A stretch of 64,000 nt of DNA from a virus. Below the pieces are notes generated by a model. That model was not told the DNA's origin. It made no database searches and was given only the letters and a program-made list of their open reading frames with translations. Below are positions 15,496-60,560 of the stretch, one piece after another (within the stretch, counting starts at the first letter, position 1; the number at the start of each line of letters is the position of its first letter). The DNA lies in the IMG/VR virus record IMGVR_UViG_3300042515_002448, positions 1 through 64,000 of that record; one strand, 5' to 3'. Made by a program: the position numbers and the translations under genes.

Positions 15496-15524
15496 TCGCT
15501 TTTTTAGCTTTTTTGTGGTATAAT
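15496..15524 (+). promoter_or_regulatory. Candidate sigma70-like promoter for the RNA cluster
   Basis: A perfect TATAAT box lies at 15519-15524 with TG two bases before it (TGG-TATAAT), directly after the tail operon and before a structured RNA candidate. The region where a -35 box should be (about 15496-15501, TCGCTT) matches the consensus poorly, so this would be an extended-type or activated promoter. Predicted from sequence only. Confidence 0.4.
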
Positions 15525-15529
15525 ACATT

Positions 15530-15665
15530 GATTAGGATTACTTAGCCTAAACAGCGACGAGTTCTTGCATTCTCGTAAAATAAAATGCAAGTGGTGGAAA
15601 GGTAACGTAATCTAACCATTACGTCCCCAACCCCACACACAGCTAAAAATTGTGTGTGGGGTTTT
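15530..15665 (+). ncRNA. Candidate structured small RNA upstream of tmRNA
   Basis: About 135 nt between a TATAAT box and a strong terminator, with no credible ORF. CTTGCATT (15564-15571) pairs with AATGCAAG (15584-15591). GATTAC (15536-15541) can pair with GTAATC (15607-15612). The second strand overlaps ACGTAAT (15605-15611), which can instead pair with ATTACGT (15618-15624), so two exclusive folds are possible. There is no T-loop or anticodon arm, so it is not an ordinary tRNA. Function unknown; it could be a phage sRNA or a leader. Confidence 0.4.
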
Positions 15666-15666
15666 C
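15631..15666 (+). terminator. Rho-independent terminator after the RNA candidate
   Basis: CCCCACACACA (15631-15641) pairs perfectly with TGTGTGTGGGG (15651-15661) around a 9-nt loop and is followed by TTTT. It separates the small RNA candidate from the tmRNA gene. Confidence 0.75.
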
Positions 15667-15710
15667 TATTACTTGCTTTTTTACCTGTTGGTGTAGTAAC
15701 CTTTCTATAT

Positions 15711-16130
15711 GGGCTCGTACTGGTTTCGACTGAGAGTTGGAATTACGGACCGCACGTCGAGGAAGTCTGGTTGGCCTCGTAAAAACATCTGGACAAAAAG
15801 CAAACGCCAACACTAACATTGTTGACTTCGCTCCTTCGGTTGAAGAAGCTGACGCGATTCTCGCTGCCTTCGGGTACGCAGACGCTGACGCTCTCCTCGC
15901 TGCCTAGGGAGTGCCTGAAGCTGACTGTCTGCTAAGCTTCAGGGTAACACGCAGCGGACTGGTTTGTGAAAGACTTAATCCTGCTTTCACATAACGAGAC
16001 AAATGGATTATCGAGAAAACGTAGCCTGCTTGTTGGCGACGTCTATTTAAACTAAAAAACAAAGCTAAACGTGTAGAAATCTGTAGTGAAGACGTTCAGG
16101 ACAGGGGTTCAACTCCCCTCGAGTCCACCA
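15711..16130 (+). ncRNA. ssrA: Transfer-messenger RNA (tmRNA), one-piece
   Basis: 420 nt. The 5' GGGCTCG pairs with 3' CGAGTCC, including the G3.U pair that alanyl-tRNA synthetase recognises. The 5' side has the tmRNA D-loop signature GGTTTCGAC; the 3' side has T-arm AGGGG-TTCAACT-CCCCT and encoded CCA. The resume codon is probably GCA at 15800-15802. The reading frame runs to TAG at 15905-15907 and encodes a 35-residue tag that starts ANANTNIVDF, contains DAILAA and ends DALLAA. A hairpin or pseudoknot strand pair (CCTGAAGCT / AGCTTCAGG) follows the tag. tmRNA with SmpB rescues stalled ribosomes and tags the product for ClpXP-type proteolysis. No smpB is seen here, so host SmpB would be needed. 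Confidence 0.93.
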
Positions 16131-16150
16131 TTTTCTGGGTGGGTAACAAT

Positions 16151-16194
16151 CTCCCTATCTCACAAGGGGTGTGAGGTAGGGAGAGTCTTTTTTA
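16151..16194 (+). terminator. Terminator after tmRNA
   Basis: A 13-bp stem (CTCCCTATCTCAC, 16151-16163, with GTGAGGTAGGGAG, 16171-16183, one G.T pair) is followed by a T-rich run. The downstream gene is on the opposite strand and ends at 16203, so the hairpin may terminate transcripts from both sides. Confidence 0.8.
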
Positions 16195-19971: not shown

Positions 19972-21098
19972 ACTGCGAATCTACGATAGGACGATCATTC
20001 TTTGCTCCTACCGCAGCCAATCAAGGAATTAATCTGCTGTACCTATTCAATGTAATGTATGGCTACATACCTACTACATTGAATTTCTCTGAAGACTTCA
20101 CCATGTCCTCTCTAGAGGATGTTGGTAAGTACTTCGATTCCTTCAGTTCTTCTTTTACAAAGGTCGGAGAACAACTGTTTGAGGAAGGTATATGGGCTGG
20201 AAAGGCTGGCACCAAGTTCGAAGGAGCTCTATTGTCGGTCTATTTCAGAAGAGGAGACGGAGAAACAATATATCCGTTTAGCGAAGTTCGTCTTTTCTCT
20301 CCAGGCTATCACGACTCCTCGAGCGATGTGTATGTAGGTATCAAAGCAGTCTGTGTTGACAACAATCAAGCCTCAGAGCTTGCAACGCTATTTGATTCCC
20401 ATAAAATTCAACAAAAGAGCAAGATATTCATTTTATCTAGCTCTTATGGTGACCTTGAGTTTACTTCGATACCTACAGAGGATATGAGCACCGATATTGC
20501 TCTAAACTACGGAGATACTTTCGTAGGTATCAGCGAAGAGCTTGTCAATAGCTTGAATACCACCAAATCAGGACTGTATCTTTTTCATGGAGCGCCAGGA
20601 ACAGGTAAATCGTCCTATATCAAATACCTTTGCTCTGGAGTTATTAAAAGGAAACTTGCTTATATTCCTGTAGGCTTGATAGGCAAGCTTGTTTCTCCAG
20701 ATATGATGCCTCTCCTCATGGGAAACAAAGATATTGTTCTTGTTATTGAGGATGCAGAGAAAGCTCTATTAAGTCGTGAGTCAGTAGATAACTCAGATTT
20801 GGTTTCTACTATTTTAAATCTGACTGACGGATTTTTAGGACATGCTCTAAATATCAGTGTTATAGCAACATTCAATACATCGAAAGATAAGATTGATGAG
20901 GCATTACTGCGTAAAGGAAGATTAAAGCTATGTCACGAGTTCAAGGAGCTAGATCGTGCTCAGAGTGTGAAGCTAGCAAAGCATCTGGGGTTAGACCACT
21001 CAGTTATTGAAGAGGGTATGACTTTGGCTGATATATATAATATGGGAGCGAACACCAGATATGAAAAAGAAGAGGTACGCAGAGTGGGTTTCTTTTAG
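19959..21098 (+). CDS. AAA+ ATPase, BCS1/classical AAA-like
   Basis: 379 aa. Walker A GAPGTGKS at about 210-217. Walker B-like LVIEDAEKAL at about 261-270, in which the usual D-E is E-D. Sensor 1-like IATFNTSKDKID, and an arginine-finger/sensor region EALLRKGRLKLCHEF. The N-terminal 190 residues are a beta-rich domain with no clear match and may bind the substrate. The arrangement 'ALLRKGRL' is typical of BCS1-like and related AAA proteins that act on folded protein substrates. The start overlaps the preceding gene; a later ATG near 20056 is an alternative. The 3' end overlaps the convergent terL by 4 bp. Role in phage assembly or remodelling is inferred. Confidence 0.65.
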   Translation: MHPLNCESTIGRSFFAPTAANQGINLLYLFNVMYGYIPTTLNFSEDFTMSSLEDVGKYFDSFSSSFTKVGEQLFEEGIWAGKAGTKFEGALLSVYFRRGDGETIYPFSEVRLFSPGYHDSSSDVYVGIKAVCVDNNQASELATLFDSHKIQQKSKIFILSSSYGDLEFTSIPTEDMSTDIALNYGDTFVGISEELVNSLNTTKSGLYLFHGAPGTGKSSYIKYLCSGVIKRKLAYIPVGLIGKLVSPDMMPLLMGNKDIVLVIEDAEKALLSRESVDNSDLVSTILNLTDGFLGHALNISVIATFNTSKDKIDEALLRKGRLKLCHEFKELDRAQSVKLAKHLGLDHSVIEEGMTLADIYNMGANTRYEKEEVRRVGFF

Positions 21099-22813
21099 CT
21101 CATGTCTTCACCTGCTGTTGAGCTAGGTCCCAGCAACCCGGCGTCGCCTACAGCCATGTAGGCGGCACAAGCAGCAAACACAAGACTGTGCATGGCGTCG
21201 TCTGGCTGTTTTGGGTGGTGGTCGTAAATCAGTTCCTGACCAAACAGTCCGTCTTTTACCTCAATGAATATGTTTAGTATGTCCTGCATGTACTCGTTCA
21301 CATCAGTCCATTGAGGGAATAGGATGTTTCCTGCTTTTAGCTGCCTCATAACTAGCGATATTACGTCAGACCTATGAAGAACCCAACGGTTTTGTCTCCA
21401 ATCATATACTCCAGGCTCAAAATGTTGAATCATTTTAGTTCTTCTATATGCAGCCAACTGAGACCTTTGAGGACTGGTAAGCTCGCATAGTTTGATTCCA
21501 CGAATTGGATCAGGCCCACTGTCACTCACACAGAAAGCTCCAACCATATTGGCTATATCTGCTATCTGTCGTATATGCGCCTCATGATCATGCCCTCTGA
21601 ATATTTTAGCCATGATCACTTCCAATACACCATCATTACGCACACCAATCAAGGTAGCCACTGTTCTAGACTGTGCCATGCTTACACCCCAATCTACCCC
21701 CATTGTGTATTTGATGTATCTGTGTTGGCTGGTAGCTAATATCGGAAGGTCTCTGTGTTCGTCTACCGACCCTGATTGTGGGCCTAGTGTACATAGACGT
21801 ATGAGTTCTTCCTGAGTTATAGGTTTACTTCCTATGTCGTATGATAATCCGAAAGTTTCATTCATAACAACTCGAACCTCGTTCTTGCCGCTATGCACTT
21901 TTTCGTATATTTCTTTCCACTCTTTAGGGTCTTCGTTAAAATGAGGCAATATAGGCTGCGCTAGATGATAGCCTGTAAGCAAAGCTTTTACGGGATTTGT
22001 AGCAACCCATTCCCCATTCCTGGAGTTTAACTGTTTACAGCATTTGCTGCAACTAAACCCGTGAGGCTGAATCATTTTCAGGGGGTCGTTCCCTTCGGTG
22101 AGTGAGTTCCAATGTGTGCAGTATTCGCACTTCATCATCCATTCCAGCTGATTGCTGGTTTTCCAGATTTTATGAATTGTATTGGTTGAGTCTAGCGGAG
22201 TACCTGCAAATATCTCCCGTTTGTATGGAGACATTGCCATAGTTTCTTGAATAATAGGTATCTGGTCGTGCTGTATATCTTGTACTTCATCATACACGAC
22301 ACAATCAATAGCCGGGCCACGAGTTCTGGTGGCATCATCGCTACAATATCTAAACAACACACTACTATGTGTATCATCTAATATTTTTTCAAATACATCA
22401 TTCTTAAACCATCCTTTTAATAAAAGATTTTTAACTTTAGGGCTTTCAAACCTCGGAGGAATATAATTACTAGAAAAATACTTAGTTGTCAGCTCCTGAG
22501 GTCCGACATACATCATCTTATAATAATTAAACCTTATCAAATTTAGACATATAAAATTAGACAATAAAGTAGACTTTAGAGTTTTACGACTACACTTCAA
22601 GATCATTTTCTGAGGCACATTGTCATATATCTGCTTCAGCATCGGGAAAGCTTCCAATGACTGCAATCTACCTTCGTTGTCGTAAAGATAATTTTCGATA
22701 AAGTAGGAGGGAGGAAGTACCGAGAAGGCAAGCTGACGCCCTAGGAACAGTGACTTTGCGTTGTTCCTATGCATCAGCAATTCTACAGTATGTTTAATTT
22801 CATCATGGGTCAT
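21095..22813 (-). CDS. terL: Terminase large subunit
   Basis: 572 aa, minus strand. It packages phage DNA into proheads using an ATPase motor and a nuclease. The ATPase part has SRKTLKS (about 75-81) in the Walker A position, VVYDEVQD (about 172-179) as Walker B and an AGTP coupling motif. The nuclease part has GVDWG (first acidic residue, about 373-377), VSDSGPD and a late QPDDAMHS acidic site, matching the RNase H-like fold. A CxxC...CxxC zinc-like insertion (CEYC, CSKC) lies between. The Walker A glycine before K is replaced by Leu. The gene is convergent with the AAA+ gene and its ATG overlaps a small divergent ORF. Confidence 0.85.
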   Translation of the reverse strand: MTHDEIKHTVELLMHRNNAKSLFLGRQLAFSVLPPSYFIENYLYDNEGRLQSLEAFPMLKQIYDNVPQKMILKCSRKTLKSTLLSNFICLNLIRFNYYKMMYVGPQELTTKYFSSNYIPPRFESPKVKNLLLKGWFKNDVFEKILDDTHSSVLFRYCSDDATRTRGPAIDCVVYDEVQDIQHDQIPIIQETMAMSPYKREIFAGTPLDSTNTIHKIWKTSNQLEWMMKCEYCTHWNSLTEGNDPLKMIQPHGFSCSKCCKQLNSRNGEWVATNPVKALLTGYHLAQPILPHFNEDPKEWKEIYEKVHSGKNEVRVVMNETFGLSYDIGSKPITQEELIRLCTLGPQSGSVDEHRDLPILATSQHRYIKYTMGVDWGVSMAQSRTVATLIGVRNDGVLEVIMAKIFRGHDHEAHIRQIADIANMVGAFCVSDSGPDPIRGIKLCELTSPQRSQLAAYRRTKMIQHFEPGVYDWRQNRWVLHRSDVISLVMRQLKAGNILFPQWTDVNEYMQDILNIFIEVKDGLFGQELIYDHHPKQPDDAMHSLVFAACAAYMAVGDAGLLGPSSTAGEDMS

Positions 22814-23162: not shown

Positions 23163-23736
23163 TTCTGCTTGTATCCCTGTTAAGAAAAGAGGACGCCCAA
23201 AAGGATCTAAAAACAAACCCAAAACCGATACAGCTCCAGTATCCCCTGAGCCTGCTCCTATAGCTAAAAAAAGAGGCAGACCGAAAGGGTCAAAGAATAA
23301 GGTTTATGTGCAACCAGAGCTAGCCGCTGCACAACCTGTTGCAGAGGCTAAAAAAAGAGGCAGACCGAAAGGGTCAAAGAATAAGACAACGCTAGCTGCC
23401 GTTATAAAGTCTCACGAGAGCTTAAAGGAACCAGTTACTGTAACAAGAAGACCAATATCGGCTTCTACTGATATAACAACAGTCCATCCAGCAGTACAGC
23501 CTATTGCTGAAGAACACCCTCTTCAGATAGCTGCTTCTTGGATTGAAAAAAATATGCATCCTTCTGAGGTGCAATATTACCGTAGCCGGGCCAACAGGAC
23601 CGGGACTTCGTTGCGCTGTGCAATGATGTCAGACATGCTCGGGTTTTTTAACGTAAAAGACACCGAGATTAACAAGCAAGTAAAGAAAAATAACTTCATA
23701 GTTACACCCATATCATCGCATGGACTTCACGACTAA
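23104..23736 (+). CDS. Triple AT-hook DNA-binding protein
   Basis: 210 aa. Three copies of the AT-hook core KKRGRPKGSKNK lie at about residues 27-38, 55-66 and 82-93, separated by Pro/Ala-rich linkers. AT-hooks insert the GRP core into the minor groove of A/T-rich DNA. Copies 2 and 3 share a perfect 39-bp DNA repeat (23263-23301 and 23347-23385), which shows recent duplication. The C-terminal 100 residues hold a helical domain (LQIAASWIEKNMHPSEVQYY...). The gene overlaps the Ycf46-like ATPase by 17 bp, so the two are probably co-translated. Possible roles are nucleoid or transcription control. Confidence 0.6.
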   Translation: MREKLGKGSYKKKTQTTSSSSACIPVKKRGRPKGSKNKPKTDTAPVSPEPAPIAKKRGRPKGSKNKVYVQPELAAAQPVAEAKKRGRPKGSKNKTTLAAVIKSHESLKEPVTVTRRPISASTDITTVHPAVQPIAEEHPLQIAASWIEKNMHPSEVQYYRSRANRTGTSLRCAMMSDMLGFFNVKDTEINKQVKKNNFIVTPISSHGLHD

Positions 23737-25306
23737 AATACACAACTACCACAAAGCCTGTTACCCTGGTCTATTTGTGCTCACCCACGAAGAAACAAGG
23801 TTTTCAAGAGATCTGCTGACCCTGAGGGAGAGAGAGCCAGGAATCACAATCCATGAATGGGATGCTCAGGAAGGACTGGTGTGCAGAGCAGGTGAAAATC
23901 AGCTCGCCCATCCAGAAGAAACAAGGCAAACGGTAAATCTTTTAGAGTATATTCAGAAGTACAAGCACGCAAACAACATTTTTGTTCTGCGCGACTTTCA
24001 TCTGCACTTCGACAAGGTAATTAACATCCGCTTGCTCAGGAATGCATGGAACAAGCTTAAAAGGCTTCGTAACATGATTATTTTCGTAGGGCATAAGTTT
24101 GCTGTACCAGGAGAGCTTGTTAAGGAAATTCAATTGCTTGACTATACTCTACCTGATTCCGCCTCTATTGAAGAGCGCTTGATGTTTATCAAAAACTCAA
24201 TCAATAAGGAGTTGGCAGAAAGCAATCAGCCGCTGATCGAAATCTCTACAGGTATTGTCGAGGCTTCTGTTGAAGCAGCGAAAGGTATGACTAACATCGA
24301 GGTTGAGAACGCTTTTGCTATGGCCTACATCAGCGCAAAAGCCTTTAATCAGAGGTTTGTAGAGGCGGTCTTTCAAGAAAAAATAAGTCAGCTTAAAAAG
24401 AACGGTCTGCTTACTTATATGGAACCCAACATTTCGTTTGATAATGTTGGCGGCATGTCCGGACTGAAGAAGTGGTTGACCGCCAGGAAAAACGCATACT
24501 CCAAGTCTGCCAGAGACTACAAACTTCCTATGCCTAAAGGTATGCTTCTTGCAAGTGTTCCAGGCACAGGCAAAAGCCTTATTTGCAAGGCTATCGCTCG
24601 AGAGTTTGACTGCCCTTTGTTCTCTCTTGATGTAGGTAGTGTTTTTGATTCGCTTGTGGGTAATAGCGAAAAGAACATGCGGGAGGTTATCAAAACCGTA
24701 GAGTCTATAGGTAAGTGTGTTATTCTTATTGACGAGATTGAAAAGTCTCTAAGTAACAATGCTGTTTCCGGCGGAGGAGACAGTGGGGTAAGCAGCCGTA
24801 TCTTCGGTACGTTCCTGACTTGGCTGAATGACCGCAATAACCCTGCATTCATTGTAGCTACGACGAACAACCATACTCTGCTTCCTGCCGCCCTGATCCG
24901 TAAAGGTCGTTTTGACCAGTTGTTCTGGGTAGATTTACCTAACGCTGAGGAGCGCAAAGAAATCTTCAATGTAGTAATTAAGAAATACGGAAGAAATCCA
25001 AAAGATTTCAGCATAAAGACTCTGGTGACTGGTTCAGATAATTTTACTGGTGCTGAGATTGAAGAAGTTTTTAAAGATGCGCTGTATAAAGCGTTTGATG
25101 TTGGTGAAGAAGTAGCAGATACTCACGTGCTTGAAGTATTGGCTGAGTTTATTCCGTTCGCTACGAGCCATGAAGAAGATTTGAAAATCATGCGCAGACA
25201 GGCACAAGGCAAGCTAGTCATGGTTTCTTCCCAAGGAGACCCTGTAGCAGATGTACAAAAAAACATGAGAAAGTTATCTATCGCCATCAGCAACGAAGAC
25301 ATCTAA
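23720..25306 (+). CDS. Ycf46-like AAA+ ATPase
   Basis: 528 aa. The N-terminal 200 residues (YPGLFVLTHEETRFSRDLL, ..HEWDAQEGL) match the Ycf46 N-domain layout, in which an 'I.T.EE.R' strand precedes 'W....G'. The AAA+ module begins near 235 (ISFDNVGGMSGLKKWL). Walker A is VPGTGKS (about 279-285), Walker B is ILIDEIEKSL (about 334-343), and the sensor/finger region ends with ALIRKGRFDQLFWVDLP. This is a classical FtsH/CDC48-clade ATPase without a visible membrane segment or protease domain. Ycf46 proteins are known from cyanobacteria and plastids, with poorly defined function. It is the first enzyme of a tight operon with DUF3150-, DUF1257- and DUF2997-like genes. Confidence 0.75.
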   Translation: MDFTTKIHNYHKACYPGLFVLTHEETRFSRDLLTLREREPGITIHEWDAQEGLVCRAGENQLAHPEETRQTVNLLEYIQKYKHANNIFVLRDFHLHFDKVINIRLLRNAWNKLKRLRNMIIFVGHKFAVPGELVKEIQLLDYTLPDSASIEERLMFIKNSINKELAESNQPLIEISTGIVEASVEAAKGMTNIEVENAFAMAYISAKAFNQRFVEAVFQEKISQLKKNGLLTYMEPNISFDNVGGMSGLKKWLTARKNAYSKSARDYKLPMPKGMLLASVPGTGKSLICKAIAREFDCPLFSLDVGSVFDSLVGNSEKNMREVIKTVESIGKCVILIDEIEKSLSNNAVSGGGDSGVSSRIFGTFLTWLNDRNNPAFIVATTNNHTLLPAALIRKGRFDQLFWVDLPNAEERKEIFNVVIKKYGRNPKDFSIKTLVTGSDNFTGAEIEEVFKDALYKAFDVGEEVADTHVLEVLAEFIPFATSHEEDLKIMRRQAQGKLVMVSSQGDPVADVQKNMRKLSIAISNEDI

Positions 25307-25328
25307 CAAACACCAACCAATAATAAAT

Positions 25329-26330
25329 ATGTCCGATTACAAACTGTCATCCACACTGCAACAGCACTACAACAAGGTTTTCCAAGATGGGAAACTTATA
25401 AACCTGCATGTCGGTATGTGGGGAATGTCCTATAACTTGACTGAAGGAGACATCAAATTAGATAAGCAACTCCCAGAGACTATTAAACTGGGCAAGAAAA
25501 TGTTGATCAAGCCTTCAGTCTTCAACAAGTTCAAGAATTATGAGCAGAAGGCTAGGAAATACCTCTACGAAAATTCGTTCGCATTTCCGCTGGCTGCTCA
25601 AGCTCACTTCGTACCAAAGACAAAGTTTATTGAAGTGTATAAGAAGTTAAACGAGCTCCGTGCCGGTTACCTGGCTATGGTAGACGAGTTTGTTTTAAAG
25701 TACGAAGACTATAAGCGAGAAGTTATTGAGTACTATAACGCCCATAAAGACACTGTGAGTGTGGATGACTTGAGTTCTTATTATCCCCCTCTCGAAAAGA
25801 TTGCGAAAAAATTCTGTTTCGATATTGTCTCTTACGAGATAGCTCTGCCTACTGAGTTTAATGAGCTGAACCTGCAGGATGAGATTCGTCGTGAAGAAGA
25901 TCATGCCGAAGCAAAGCAGCAGGCTGCTGCGAAGTACCGCCAGGAGTATGCGCAACAGCTAGAGGTGCATTCCTCTAAGCTTAGCCAATTCATGGATGAG
26001 GTTACGCAGACTGTGCGTGGCAAGATTGCCGAGCACTTTAGTGTTGTTCTCAACAAGATTACCAAAAAAGAGCTGGTCTCCGAAGCAAGTATCAGATCAA
26101 TATACAGGCAGATAGAGGAGTTCAGGTCTGCAAACTTTGCAGATGACAAGTCTGTGGAGGCTGAGCTGAGTAAGCTTGAAAATCTCCTTAACGGTAAGCA
26201 TGACTTCGAAGGAAACAAAGACGCCATCTCTCTGCTTAAGACACATCTTAGTAATGTTGTGAAAGCTGCCGAGGACACCTCAGATGTAGCTAACGTCGCT
26301 GGCGAGTATTTCCGTAAATTGAGTGTATAG
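25329..26330 (+). CDS. DUF3150-like protein
   Basis: 333 aa. The opening INLHVGMWGMSYNLTEGDIK (about 24-43) resembles the DUF3150 start, 'I.L....W...+.L...D'. A long helical body follows, with a coiled-coil stretch (REEDHAEAKQQAAAKYRQEY). DUF3150 genes are often encoded next to AAA+ ATPases; here it follows the Ycf46-like gene by 22 bp with an A/C-rich leader. A substrate-adaptor or regulator role for the ATPase is inferred. The family call is from motif reading only. Confidence 0.5.
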   Translation: MSDYKLSSTLQQHYNKVFQDGKLINLHVGMWGMSYNLTEGDIKLDKQLPETIKLGKKMLIKPSVFNKFKNYEQKARKYLYENSFAFPLAAQAHFVPKTKFIEVYKKLNELRAGYLAMVDEFVLKYEDYKREVIEYYNAHKDTVSVDDLSSYYPPLEKIAKKFCFDIVSYEIALPTEFNELNLQDEIRREEDHAEAKQQAAAKYRQEYAQQLEVHSSKLSQFMDEVTQTVRGKIAEHFSVVLNKITKKELVSEASIRSIYRQIEEFRSANFADDKSVEAELSKLENLLNGKHDFEGNKDAISLLKTHLSNVVKAAEDTSDVANVAGEYFRKLSV

Positions 26331-36173: not shown

Positions 36174-36365
36174 ATGACAAAAATTGATCAAACTAAAATA
36201 ACTCCACAGATCCAAAGAAAAATCAAGGAAGTCAATGATGAGGCCGGCTACAGAACTTATCTAGAAGTTCCAGAAATGATTCGTATTATTTGTGAGGTTG
36301 TAGAAGCAAACTACAGTATTGATCATAGGGATGAGCAAAACCAAAATAGAAACAATTATTTGTAA
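36174..36365 (+). CDS. Unknown small protein
   Basis: 63 aa from the ATG at 36174 (TTTTTAAAAATGAC). Helical, with 'IQRKIKEVNDEAGYRTYLEV'. Its last base is shared with the next ATG (TAATG), coupling it to the UV endonuclease gene. Family not recognised. Confidence 0.4.
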   Translation: MTKIDQTKITPQIQRKIKEVNDEAGYRTYLEVPEMIRIICEVVEANYSIDHRDEQNQNRNNYL

Positions 36366-37288
36366 TGATTCGTAATAGAGGTGTGTGTTGTATTGTTCTT
36401 GAACTGGAAGAAAATGATCCTCCGCTTAAGTTTAAAACAATGACTTATAAACGCTTCAGTTCTCTAGAGAGAGCGGAAGCTTTGGTTAAGCTAGGAGATG
36501 TTATACTAAATAATCTTCTTGTAACTCAAAAAGCAATCGAGTACTGCGGAGTTAGAAATCATAACTACAGGTTAAGCAGCAATATATTCCCGCTAATGAC
36601 CTATGAAAAAGCTCACATAGTGTTTGAGGAATTTCCTCAAATAGATGAGATTGTTGAAGGTTTTGATAAAATTAAAGAGACTCGAGAAACTTACAAAGTA
36701 AGACTGAGTAGTCACCCAGATCAATTCAATGTATTGGCTAGCGAGAATAGTGATGCGGTGATTAGAACAGTATCCGAGCTCGATTTTCAGGGATGGTTTA
36801 TGACGAGAATAGGCTGCCCTCTCAGTAAAGAATCTCCGATAAATATCCATGTTAATCGTAGTGCAGTCTCTGACGATCAAAGAAAAGCTGTCCGCGATCT
36901 GTTCTATAGTAATATGAGCCGCTTGTCTGAAAATGTTACGAGTCGTTTAGTTTTGGAGAATGACGACAAGCCGGCAGGTTGGACAGTAGCGCAACTGTTT
37001 GATTATTTTGATAGTCCTGAAATACCGATAACGTTTGATTATCTGCATCATAAATGTAATCCAGGTGCAGGGTATTTCGCGCAGGAAGCGCAGGCTTTTC
37101 TGCTGGCTCACGATACCTGGAGAACCAAACCGTACGTGCCGTTGTTTCATTATAGCGAAAGCATTCCTGGAAATAAAAATCCTAGAAAGCATAGCGATTA
37201 TGCAACAAAACTGCCTGACACCTACGGTCAAACGATTGACCTAGACTTTGAATTCAAGATGAAAGAGAAGTCGTTTGAGCTGTTATGA
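36365..37288 (+). CDS. UV damage endonuclease (UvdE/UvsE-like)
   Basis: 307 aa. The series 'NIFPLMTYEKAH' (about 77-88), 'YKVRLSSHPDQFNVLASEN' (about 111-129), 'INIHVNRS' (about 158-165), 'LVLENDDKPAGWT' (about 196-208), 'ITFDYLHHKCNPG' (about 221-233) and 'PLFHYSES' (about 254-261) is the UvdE/UVDE TIM-barrel metal-site set (H, E, D, HH, H). Such enzymes nick 5' of cyclobutane dimers and other lesions, starting alternative excision repair. Normal family length. It protects phage DNA against UV and suggests life in a lit or oxidising setting. Confidence 0.85.
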   Translation: MIRNRGVCCIVLELEENDPPLKFKTMTYKRFSSLERAEALVKLGDVILNNLLVTQKAIEYCGVRNHNYRLSSNIFPLMTYEKAHIVFEEFPQIDEIVEGFDKIKETRETYKVRLSSHPDQFNVLASENSDAVIRTVSELDFQGWFMTRIGCPLSKESPINIHVNRSAVSDDQRKAVRDLFYSNMSRLSENVTSRLVLENDDKPAGWTVAQLFDYFDSPEIPITFDYLHHKCNPGAGYFAQEAQAFLLAHDTWRTKPYVPLFHYSESIPGNKNPRKHSDYATKLPDTYGQTIDLDFEFKMKEKSFELL

Positions 37289-51994: not shown

Positions 51995-52669
51995 ATGAAA
52001 AAGACATACATTATCCATATCGAAACTCAGCCACTCACTCTTACTGAGTTGCTTGCGAAAGCTCCTGATTTTAAAGCTGCATCAAATTTAAAAGATCCTG
52101 CTAAGATCGCTGAAGATATTGAAAAGAAAAAAAATAAATATATTTCTGAGGCACAGTTTAACGACAATACCTGTGAAGTCTGCGCTGTAGGTCTCACAAA
52201 TCTAGAGACAGGCACGCAGCGGATAGTGGGTTTGTATGGGGGTGATGCCCTTGTGGAAGACGAACACGATATTTTTGAGTGGTTGCATGACAACCTCAAG
52301 AGTAACGAGGATCCAAACGACCCCTGGACAGACACGATCACATTCAGAGGAGAAAAATTTATATATCCTTTGCTTGCACGTAAAGGAGCCAGGTACGGGT
52401 TCCCTTTCTTTTCTGCCTTTTACTCACCAGCAGCCACAGGCAGGTTGAAGGACTCTAATCACTTCGATATAGCGAAAAGGTGGGCTTGTGGAAGCCTGAG
52501 TCACCCCGAAAATCTGCAGGAAGTTGCCCGCATGCTAAGCATTCACCATGTGATTTCGAACGTGCCTTACTACAAGCTAGCTCAAGAGAATTCTGACGAG
52601 GCCGAAGCTTATTTTCTGAATACGCTTGACGCGCTTGAAGAGATATACAACACCATCAAATCGGTATGA
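51995..52669 (+). CDS. DEDD-type 3'-5' exonuclease-like protein
   Basis: 224 aa. 'YIIHIETQPLTLTEL' at the start stands where DEDD exonucleases have 'DIET', with His for the first Asp. 'ITFRGEKFIYPLLARKGARY' (about 115-134) is the 'sFNG..FD.p.L..RA' step, and 'NHFDIAKRWACG' (about 154-165) the 'hiDl...' step. The layout matches PolB-like predicted 3'-5' exonucleases, but two metal-binding Asp positions look changed, so activity is doubtful. It shares ATGA with the JAB gene. Confidence 0.5.
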   Translation: MKKTYIIHIETQPLTLTELLAKAPDFKAASNLKDPAKIAEDIEKKKNKYISEAQFNDNTCEVCAVGLTNLETGTQRIVGLYGGDALVEDEHDIFEWLHDNLKSNEDPNDPWTDTITFRGEKFIYPLLARKGARYGFPFFSAFYSPAATGRLKDSNHFDIAKRWACGSLSHPENLQEVARMLSIHHVISNVPYYKLAQENSDEAEAYFLNTLDALEEIYNTIKSV

Positions 52670-53094
52670 TGTCTTCAACCAACTTCTCTAGAGTTATACT
52701 AGAGGCTGCGGAGATTTGCGGAGGTTCTGATGAGGAGAAAGGAGGCGTGATTTTAGAGAAGGACGACAGCTTCCTTTTTGTGCCTCTAAGAAACGACCAC
52801 GCAGGAACACATACAGCAATCGGGCTGTATGTTGCTAATCGAGCAGAGTTGGGAGAAAAGATAATTGAACGCATCAGAGAAGGATGGAGACTGTTTGCTA
52901 GTTTCCATACGCATCCATCCTTCTCTGCCACCCCCAGCCAGCTAGACCTTACTGTGTTGTTTAGAGGATTCAAACACAACGTTATTTATTCGGCAGCAAC
53001 CAAAACGTTCTCATATTCTACCTGGAGAAATGAGCAATCTGTAGCCACATATACCAGTCTCGATACGGTTCTGAGCACAAGTCAGTCAAAGTAA
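52666..53094 (+). CDS. JAB/JAMM metallopeptidase
   Basis: 142 aa, one domain. 'SDEEKGGVIL' (about 21-30) has the upstream Glu. HTHPSFSATPSQLD has His81 and His83, then Ser91 and Asp94, i.e. the JAMM zinc motif HxHPx(6)SxxD. Such enzymes cut isopeptide or peptide bonds next to a C-terminal Gly-Gly of ubiquitin-like proteins. It shares ATGA with the exonuclease-like gene and precedes an E1-like gene by 7 bp, so processing of a modifier is likely. All catalytic residues are present. JAB/E1 pairs also occur in PRTRC and other phage or plasmid systems. Confidence 0.8.
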   Translation: MMSSTNFSRVILEAAEICGGSDEEKGGVILEKDDSFLFVPLRNDHAGTHTAIGLYVANRAELGEKIIERIREGWRLFASFHTHPSFSATPSQLDLTVLFRGFKHNVIYSAATKTFSYSTWRNEQSVATYTSLDTVLSTSQSK

Positions 53095-56747: not shown

Positions 56748-57251
56748 ATGACTATATATGTAGGAATTGATAATGGTGTTACCAACAACGGTATAGGTGT
56801 TGTAAACACGGCAGGACGAGCTGAACTCTATAAGCTCCCGATCAAAAAAGAACTCAGCTATACAAAAGAAGCAAAAAATATATCCAGGATAGATTACCCT
56901 GAATTGCTTCTGTTGTTTGGAGAGATCGTGGGCGACTTTGACGCTATTGAGGTAAAGGTAGGTCTTGAGCGCCCTATGGTGAACAGTACCAGGTTTAACG
57001 CTACCCTGAGTGCTATTCGAGCTCTAGAGGCTACCTTGATTGCGCTAGAAGAGTCTCAATGGGCTTACGAGTACATTGACAGTAAAGAGTGGCAAAAATC
57101 GCTACTGCCTAAAGGATTAAAAGGCAGTGAGGAACTAAAGAAAGCCAGTCTCGACGTAGGCAAAAGATTGTTCCCGTCTCTAGATATCAAGAAAGACGCA
57201 GACGGGCTGCTTATTGCAGAATATCTTAGAAGGAAAAATGTTAGAGCTTGA
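56748..57251 (+). CDS. RuvC-like Holliday junction resolvase
   Basis: 167 aa. YVGIDNGVTNNGIGVVN (4-20) has Asp8; 'VGLERPMVNS' (71-80) has Glu74; 'KKDADGLLIAEYL' (148-160) has Asp150 and Asp152. These are the four acidic residues of RuvC-type RNase H-fold nucleases. It would resolve recombination junctions before packaging. Its ATG follows a terminator T-run directly. It overlaps the glycosylase-like gene by 4 bp (ATGA). Confidence 0.75.
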   Translation: MTIYVGIDNGVTNNGIGVVNTAGRAELYKLPIKKELSYTKEAKNISRIDYPELLLLFGEIVGDFDAIEVKVGLERPMVNSTRFNATLSAIRALEATLIALEESQWAYEYIDSKEWQKSLLPKGLKGSEELKKASLDVGKRLFPSLDIKKDADGLLIAEYLRRKNVRA

Positions 57252-58009
57252 TGCAGTTAAATTTCCTAACAGGATATGATAACGAATCAGCCTTAATTGA
57301 TCGTACCGAAATTCAATCCCAGTTCTGGGACGGTGAATTTAAATTAGAAAAACTCAAGAAAAAACCTTATTACAGAAATGTAGAAGAATTTTTCACAGAG
57401 CTAGACTATTCGCTAGCTCCTAGCTACATAGATTATTGGGCAAGTATAAAGCCTAAAAATGACAGCCAGCTATTTCAACGCTGGCTGTTTGCTTTTATGA
57501 GTGTACACACCAGTTGGAAAGCCAACATCGTAGGGTACAACGCAGTAAAAGACTGGTGGCTCTGGTTAAACGACTGGACCAATTTAAAAGATAGGATAGA
57601 AAATAGCAGGGTAGGTATGCAAAATAACAGAGTAAAGTATCTCTCTACGTTTGCACATAAGTTTTGGAGTAACCCTGAAGAGTATAAAAAGAAAGACGGT
57701 GAATCTTGGCATACTCTGCGCGACAGACTAAAAGATAAGATACTGGGATTAGGAGCAGCAAAGACAAGCTTTGCTCTCGAGATGTGCTATCCTATAGAAG
57801 CTAAGGTGGTATGCCTTGACACTCATATGTTTCAAGCCTACAAGCTAGACCAAACAAAAGATGCTCGTATGTACTCTTCGATAGAGCAGCACTGGATAGA
57901 TATGTGCTCTATGTGGCGCGTCCCGCCATACATAGCTCGTTGTTTATATTGGGACATCAAACAAGGATACTCTGATAGTCGTTATTGGAGTAAAGTATTA
58001 GAAACATAA
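57248..58009 (+). CDS. HhH-GPD-type DNA glycosylase-like protein
   Basis: 253 aa. 'DKILGLGAAKTSFALEMCYP' (163-182) is a helix-hairpin-helix with Lys172, and 'VVCLDTHMFQAY' (187-198) has Asp191. These match the catalytic Lys and Asp of bifunctional glycosylases such as endonuclease III ('GVG+KTA ... VDTHV.R'). The protein lacks a C-terminal Fe-S cluster and its N-terminal half is unlike known members. It would remove damaged bases and nick abasic sites. Co-translated with RuvC; together with UvdE it makes a DNA-repair set. Confidence 0.6.
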   Translation: MMQLNFLTGYDNESALIDRTEIQSQFWDGEFKLEKLKKKPYYRNVEEFFTELDYSLAPSYIDYWASIKPKNDSQLFQRWLFAFMSVHTSWKANIVGYNAVKDWWLWLNDWTNLKDRIENSRVGMQNNRVKYLSTFAHKFWSNPEEYKKKDGESWHTLRDRLKDKILGLGAAKTSFALEMCYPIEAKVVCLDTHMFQAYKLDQTKDARMYSSIEQHWIDMCSMWRVPPYIARCLYWDIKQGYSDSRYWSKVLET

Positions 58010-60460: not shown

Positions 60461-60560
60461 TTCTCAGTAGCTCAGAGGTAGAGCGATCCCCCCTCATGGT
60501 GAAGGACCTAAATGCCGGGATATGGGATCGGCCGTTGGTTCGAATCCAACCTGAGAACCA
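60461..60560 (+). tRNA. tRNA-like gene with enlarged anticodon region
   Basis: 100 nt. Acceptor TTCTCAG/CTGAGAA, D-arm GCTC-AGAGGTA-GAGC, T-arm GTTGG-TTCGAAT-CCAAC, A73 and CCA are all canonical. Between ATCCC (60486-60490) and GGGAT (60524-60528), where a 7-nt anticodon loop belongs, there are 33 nt. These can fold internally (CATGGT with ACC/ATG around a bulge). No anticodon can be read. Either the RNA carries a short insert or intron, or it is a tRNA-like RNA with another use. Confidence 0.6.

Follow-up and report, generated by a model that had tools for sequence, protein, structure and literature searches.

A phage-encoded one-piece tmRNA with a 33-residue tag and a conserved, apparently phage-specific internal tag module

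The window analysed here is a stretch of 64,000 nucleotides (positions 1 to 64,000) of the virus record IMGVR_UViG_3300042515_002448, which is 70.8 kb long in total, and it contains a tmRNA gene together with an upstream promoter and with hairpin structures on both sides. All coordinates refer to the window unless a related record is named, and the evidence for each feature is given in brackets.

15516-15525, + strand: extended -10 promoter TGGTATAATA, without a second exact copy in the window (sequence; the box also precedes the tmRNA of most relatives)
15629-15663, + strand: terminator-like hairpin between promoter and tmRNA (fold)
15711-16130, + strand: tmRNA (ssrA), one-piece form (ARAGORN; Infernal RF00023, 149.9 bits)
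15711-15731, + strand: 5' half of the tRNA-like domain, acceptor strand GGGCUCG, CUGGUUUCGAC (RF00023 alignment; sequence)
15758-15794, + strand: pseudoknot 1, CGAGG/CCUCG and GUCUGG/CUGGAC (sequence reading; conserved in relatives)
15806-15907, + strand: reading frame of the tag, opening with the resume codon GCC 15806 and comprising 33 codons and a TAG stop, ANTNIVDFAPSVEEADAILAAFGYADADALLAA (ARAGORN; comparison with relatives)
15830-15877, + strand: conserved tag core APSVEEADAILAAFGY, residues 9-24 (alignments; position-3 excess)
15842-15868, + strand: first repeat copy, EEADAILAA (22 of 27 matches)
15878-15904, + strand: second repeat copy, ADADALLAA (22 of 27 matches)
16104-16130, + strand: 3' half of the tRNA-like domain with T-arm, acceptor CGAGUCC with U70, and encoded CCA (RF00023 alignment; sequence)
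16150-16184, + strand: terminator hairpin with a T run, directly 3' of the tmRNA (fold)

The tmRNA gene at 15711-16130 is genuine. ARAGORN and Infernal assign exactly the same boundaries and strand, and the match to RF00023 covers the full length of the model (positions 1-374) with an E value of 5.8e-59, its score lying well above the gathering threshold of 47 bits. The acceptor stem (GGGCUCG/CGAGUCC-ACCA) contains the alanine identity element G3.U70, both bases of which were also read from the sequence ends of the intact relatives in phage group I, the CCA is encoded in the gene (16128-16130), and a pseudoknot region is present 3' of the tag frame. The initial annotation, which described a phage tmRNA complete with G3.U acceptor, T-arm, CCA, TAG-ended tag frame and a later pairing element, is confirmed by both programs. 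A two-piece (permuted) tmRNA is ruled out by the ordinary order of the halves and the full-length RF00023 match.

The tag had been read as 35 residues starting from a GCA codon, but the resume codon is GCC 15806, and the tag therefore has 33 residues. The resume site aligns without gaps to that of the relative L057, the window reading GCAAAC-GCC (GACAAAAAGCAAAC-GCC) and L057 reading CTAAAC-GCA (GACAAAAACTAAAC-GCA). GCC 15806 lies 11 nt from pseudoknot 1, in keeping with a spacing of mostly 10-12 nt among the relatives compared, whereas the alternative GCA, six bases further upstream, is 5 nt from it; furthermore, the base at position -4 before GCC 15806 is an A, as it is in every relative. The corresponding spacing in E. 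coli tmRNA is 12 nt, and A86 at -4 is its frame-setting base (PMC2481249).

A tag of 33 residues is exceptional. In an unselected scan, in which viral contigs were searched for a pattern of the 5' part of tmRNAs and which represents a sample rather than a census and relies on tag calls by ARAGORN that can be misplaced for long tags, the 81 viral-contig tmRNAs among the matches listed had tags of 9-29 residues with modes at 10 (25 tags) and 14 (15 tags), and tags of 10 residues are also the most frequent ones in the tmRNA database (PMC11915505). ARAGORN misplaces the resume codon in several long-tag tmRNAs, such as that of L055 (called AASLLAGQDLG) and the family B loci, and long tags are therefore probably under-reported in annotations. 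The unusually long and acidic tag of a phage-encoded tmRNA, as first noticed, is thus borne out at a length of 33 residues; the core of the long-tag members contains on average 5.3 D+E versus 0.4 K+R.

Relatives were collected with the large terminase of the window (GpA-type, 21095-22813), which retrieved 42 IMG/VR records with a largest size of 204 kb. A tmRNA match is present in 22 of them (20 above the RF00023 cut-off), including all nine of at least 100 kb, and their tags of 30-33 residues align well. This set was chosen independently of the tag and is the only one free of tag-pattern bias, as members retrieved by a pattern necessarily agree at the positions which that pattern specifies. 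Across 18 distinct tag frames, the differences at codon positions 1, 2 and 3 amount to 0.27, 0.24 and 0.56, with a pN/pS of 0.41, and none of 100,000 column permutations gave as large an excess at position 3 (p about 1e-5). As judged from these comparisons, the tag is selected as a peptide and is under protein-level purifying selection; the codon-position bias and the low pN/pS also suggest, indirectly, that the frame is translated. The tail-neighbour protein did not lead to any relatives, no DNA match to the window was found in 50,697 phage records, and tblastn with the window tag gave no match in this collection.

Alignment of the tags reveals a constant internal module, A-[PM]-[ST]-[VL]-x-E-A-D-A-x-L-xxx-[GE]-[FY], with five invariant positions (A, E, A, A, L), flanked by variable residues at the start and at the very end of the tag. 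The window tag carries this module (profile match at 15824-15904, E 6.6e-15). Of the 71 viral stretches located with a degenerate version of the core pattern, 70 are short frames that terminate in the manner of a tag. Among 50 additional records carrying the pattern, 48 score above the RF00023 cut-off. The carriers belong to at least six phage groups that have few neighbour genes in common; the terminase of the window was not found in the other long-tag groups, and those terminases that were seen there represent different families. The tags of one large group end in LELV, those of smaller groups in QLAA, QMAA, LAAA, LVIA or VLV, and the tag of the window itself in an LAA-type sequence. Matches of the LELV tag in phage records (E 6-8) were rejected, as the genes into which they fall are annotated as tail, structural, hypothetical or terminase genes and none of them as a tmRNA. 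Between the groups, the tag core (identity 0.59-0.68) equals the universal tRNA-like domain (0.62-0.77) in conservation, compared to 0.29-0.58 for most of the remaining tmRNA and about 0.3 for the later pseudoknot region.

Each of the 24 phage records tested contains exactly one match to the core profile, invariably within the tmRNA, and no match occurs as a tag in any of 1,086 bacterial genomes (396 Actinomycetota, 398 Pseudomonadota, 292 Cyanobacteria). A single profile match in one of the 396 Actinomycetota genomes is located inside a frame of 276 residues and is not a tag. The core module is absent from nine bacterial tmRNAs, eight of which have ordinary short tags, the ninth call being apparently misplaced, and the matches listed for the tag pattern in genome contigs contain no tmRNA tags and are mostly Nocardioides coding DNA. 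Searches of the tag against Pfam, PHROGs and PDB returned nothing, and the family searches gave no support to a supposed likeness between the core and the starts of some phage head proteins (SVAEADAYxxxxG), which was therefore dropped. The distribution of the core suggests that phages may have evolved their own way of marking unfinished proteins.

A second family of long tags, EAEYIFNNADEFL, was recognized in 48 stretches, with 43 of the 48 records above the tmRNA cut-off; its members have about 32-35 residues (e.g., AEDNTSDLLAEAEYIFNNADEFLGGVEEESYALAA) and end mostly in LAA. The two families meet in record L052, whose terminase is 80% identical to that of the window and whose neighbourhood is of the window group type (13 shared proteins), yet which carries a different tag of 32 residues belonging to the second family. 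The 5' domain, pseudoknot 1 and the 3' domain of its tmRNA are closer to the window group, whereas the tag is closer to the second family (0.66-0.77 versus 0.42-0.54). Since a second-family tag is thus found on a window-type body, an exchange of the tag cassette between tmRNA bodies is likely to have occurred in this single case.

The reading we prefer, with modest confidence, is that the phage uses its own tmRNA to add a phage-specific composite tag of 33 residues, the internal module of which would dock to a host AAA+ protease or adaptor, leading to destruction of the products. The tmRNA would probably be charged with alanine by the host, as expected from G3.U70, and would work with host SmpB, which is needed if the tmRNA functions because no SmpB was found in 60 phage records, many of them fragments. 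During infection, it would enter ribosomes stalled on broken mRNAs and add the 33 phage-specific residues to the unfinished proteins, and the truncated products would then end in ...VEEADAILAAFGYADADALLAA. The tag itself appears to be composed of a variable N-terminal spacer, a constant capped helix/turn (S/T-V/L-x-E-A-D-A-x-L-xxx-G-F/Y) and a short hydrophobic C-terminal end. Of these parts, the constant internal module would most likely be bound by a conserved AAA+ protease of the host or by the adaptor of that protease, and the C-terminal end may engage the unfolding pore. Degradation of the tagged proteins would either bypass the ordinary short-tag route of the host or run alongside it. 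An AlphaFold2 model of the tag contains a helix at residues 12-21, a turn at GY and another helix at 27-32, its mean pLDDT of 76 being only indicative for such a short peptide. Because a conserved capped helix adjoins a variable end, the model suggests that a docking site and an engagement end may be combined in the tag. Among the phage genes, only those for generic PhoH and ribonucleotide reductase were found to be common to groups I, II, III and B (four large genomes compared), with a deaminase and an unknown short protein being partly shared, and a conserved host factor is therefore the likelier partner. The conservation of the tag fits the earlier idea that the products are directed to a chosen partner. 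What speaks against the preferred reading is that the tags of the LELV group do not have the LAA end, so that their degradation by ClpXP-like routes is not assured. It is quite conceivable, if tentative, that tag cassettes confined to phages are shared and exchanged among several unrelated lineages of them and are recognized via the internal helical module rather than via a C-terminal LAA, and that ribosome rescue is thereby rewired to a partner of the phage's choice.

An LAA-type end is the usual ClpX signal in bacteria, and the variation of the tag ends bears on a different explanation, by which the long tag would replace the degradable short tag of the host and would be protective or diverting: host proteases would handle it poorly, or the products would go elsewhere, and truncated phage proteins would survive or the host proteases would not be flooded. 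This is unlikely, but draws on the end not being fixed, with a whole group in LELV and others in VLV or LVIA, unlike the common LAA, as well as on the strong acidity of the core. It is opposed by the LAA-type ends of most members, including the window, and of most tags of the second family. That two sequence-distinct families both keep about 29-35 residues might alternatively mean that length alone matters, the tag providing a long initiation stretch for AAA+ proteases and the shared sequence reflecting common descent and composition instead of a docking motif. This seems rather improbable, since five invariant core positions across very divergent tmRNA bodies and protein-level selection on the tag exceed what length requires. 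It is very improbable that only the rescue of ribosomes counts and the tag peptide is passive: a phage depending on tmRNA in E. coli does grow without a functional tag (PMC2481249), but purifying selection on the tag as a protein makes this unlikely here, and tag exchange would be unexpected for a passive tag.

The weakest explanation concerns the internal repeat and the start of the tag. DAILAA and DALLAA are both present in the window tag, as pointed out initially together with a duplication as a possible cause of its length, and they belong to a real internal repeat with an offset of 36 nt: its copies agree at 22 of 27 positions, a value equalled in none of 1000 codon shuffles. Among the records compared, only the window and its sister L045 show this repeat clearly; at the position of DAILAA, other relatives of nearly equal tag length have DAVLAT, DAFLKA, DALLNS, DAILES or DAILAK, and no second LAA-like end is present in those with the first four of these. 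A doubled degron end is therefore no family feature, and the part of the claim that does not hold is a recent lengthening; an old duplication before the spread of the family is possible. The likeness of the tag start (ANTNIV.F) to cyanobacterial tags is unsupported and most likely due to chance, because the N-terminal part varies in the relatives (VNNIDF, ANENSF, AESNFDF, ANTNMY) and the profile matches in none of the 292 Cyanobacteria genomes. It is hence hardly credible that the tag owes its length to a recently duplicated short degron or that the gene was acquired from a cyanobacterial host, the nearly constant length of all relatives, most of them without the repeat, refuting a recent origin.

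The tmRNA of the window resembles the bacterial one-piece tmRNAs (RF00023) in its tRNA-like domain with G3.U70, its pseudoknots, the A at -4 and a tag frame with stop codon, and differs from them by the 33-residue tag with its conserved internal module. Phage tmRNAs are already known (PMC4131195, PMC7162821, PMC9004378), and calling them uncommon was fair, as they occur in 402 of 18,146 phage genomes (PMC9004378). Those of the cluster C mycobacteriophages (Bxz1 and kin) also code for a long acidic tag of 25 residues, ATDTDATVTDAEIEAFFAEEAAALV, which ends in ALV (annotation in PV105552) and differs in sequence from the window tag. The marine phage Melnitz likewise represents an aquatic phage with a tmRNA, but its tmRNA is two-piece and permuted and is associated with a riboswitch (PMC9004378), while that of the window is one-piece with a long tag. 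The ssrA tag of Mesoplasma florum, which is unusual in length and sequence, is read by a dedicated Lon instead of ClpXP (PMC8138137); this system is bacterial and has another tag sequence, but may by analogy be regarded as a precedent for a tag designed for one protease.

The literature searched, which did not include most subscription journals, yielded no account of tag exchange or of a conserved tag module restricted to phages, and a phage-specific, separable tag module appears to be new. Among the reasons proposed for phage tmRNAs are that they maintain the machinery taken over by the phage and that they help to break down the proteins of the host (PMC9004378). A tag that is under selection and apparently exchanged, and is phage-only among the genomes searched, makes the question of their purpose testable, with its conserved positions pointing to the residues to change. 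Such a tag may also reveal a docking site of an adaptor or protease and may supply degrons orthogonal to the bacterial ones.

The surroundings of the tmRNA genes show further RNA elements. Between the promoter and the tmRNA of the window, positions 15528-15672 are structured (fold z-score -5.1) with the terminator-like hairpin at the end; no Rfam family was found above threshold in this stretch, which is possibly a small RNA or a tmRNA attenuator. L045, L056 and L050 have a common element upstream of the tmRNA, GTAACCAC..AACCCA.TGGTA..TAGGTT..TGTAATTGGAA.GTAGCA, for which no Rfam match was seen. A group I intron (68.7 bits) directly follows the tmRNA on its 3' side at L045:1931-2140 and L056:1146-1355, apparently within a tRNA-Met gene. 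L065 and L066 contain a long-tag tmRNA near 1501-1904 on the - strand, the T-arm of which is split by an insert with group-I-like features and without an Rfam intron call. Pistol ribozymes (about 60 bits) occur near the tmRNA in one subgroup (L064:291-359, L065:3063-3131, L066:3066-3134, L081:2145-2212).

Among the other genes of the window, a JAB-domain protein (52666-53094) and a ThiF (E1-like) protein make ubiquitin-like chemistry in the phage possible. An AAA ATPase followed by a DUF3150 protein (23720-26330) is conserved in the relatives, and a tRNA of 98 nt at 60461-60558 was recognized by Rfam (50.6 bits) and missed by ARAGORN. The DNA repair genes of the window comprise one for UvdE, a UV-damage endonuclease (36365-37288), and one with a weak match to 8-oxoguanine glycosylases (57248-58009).
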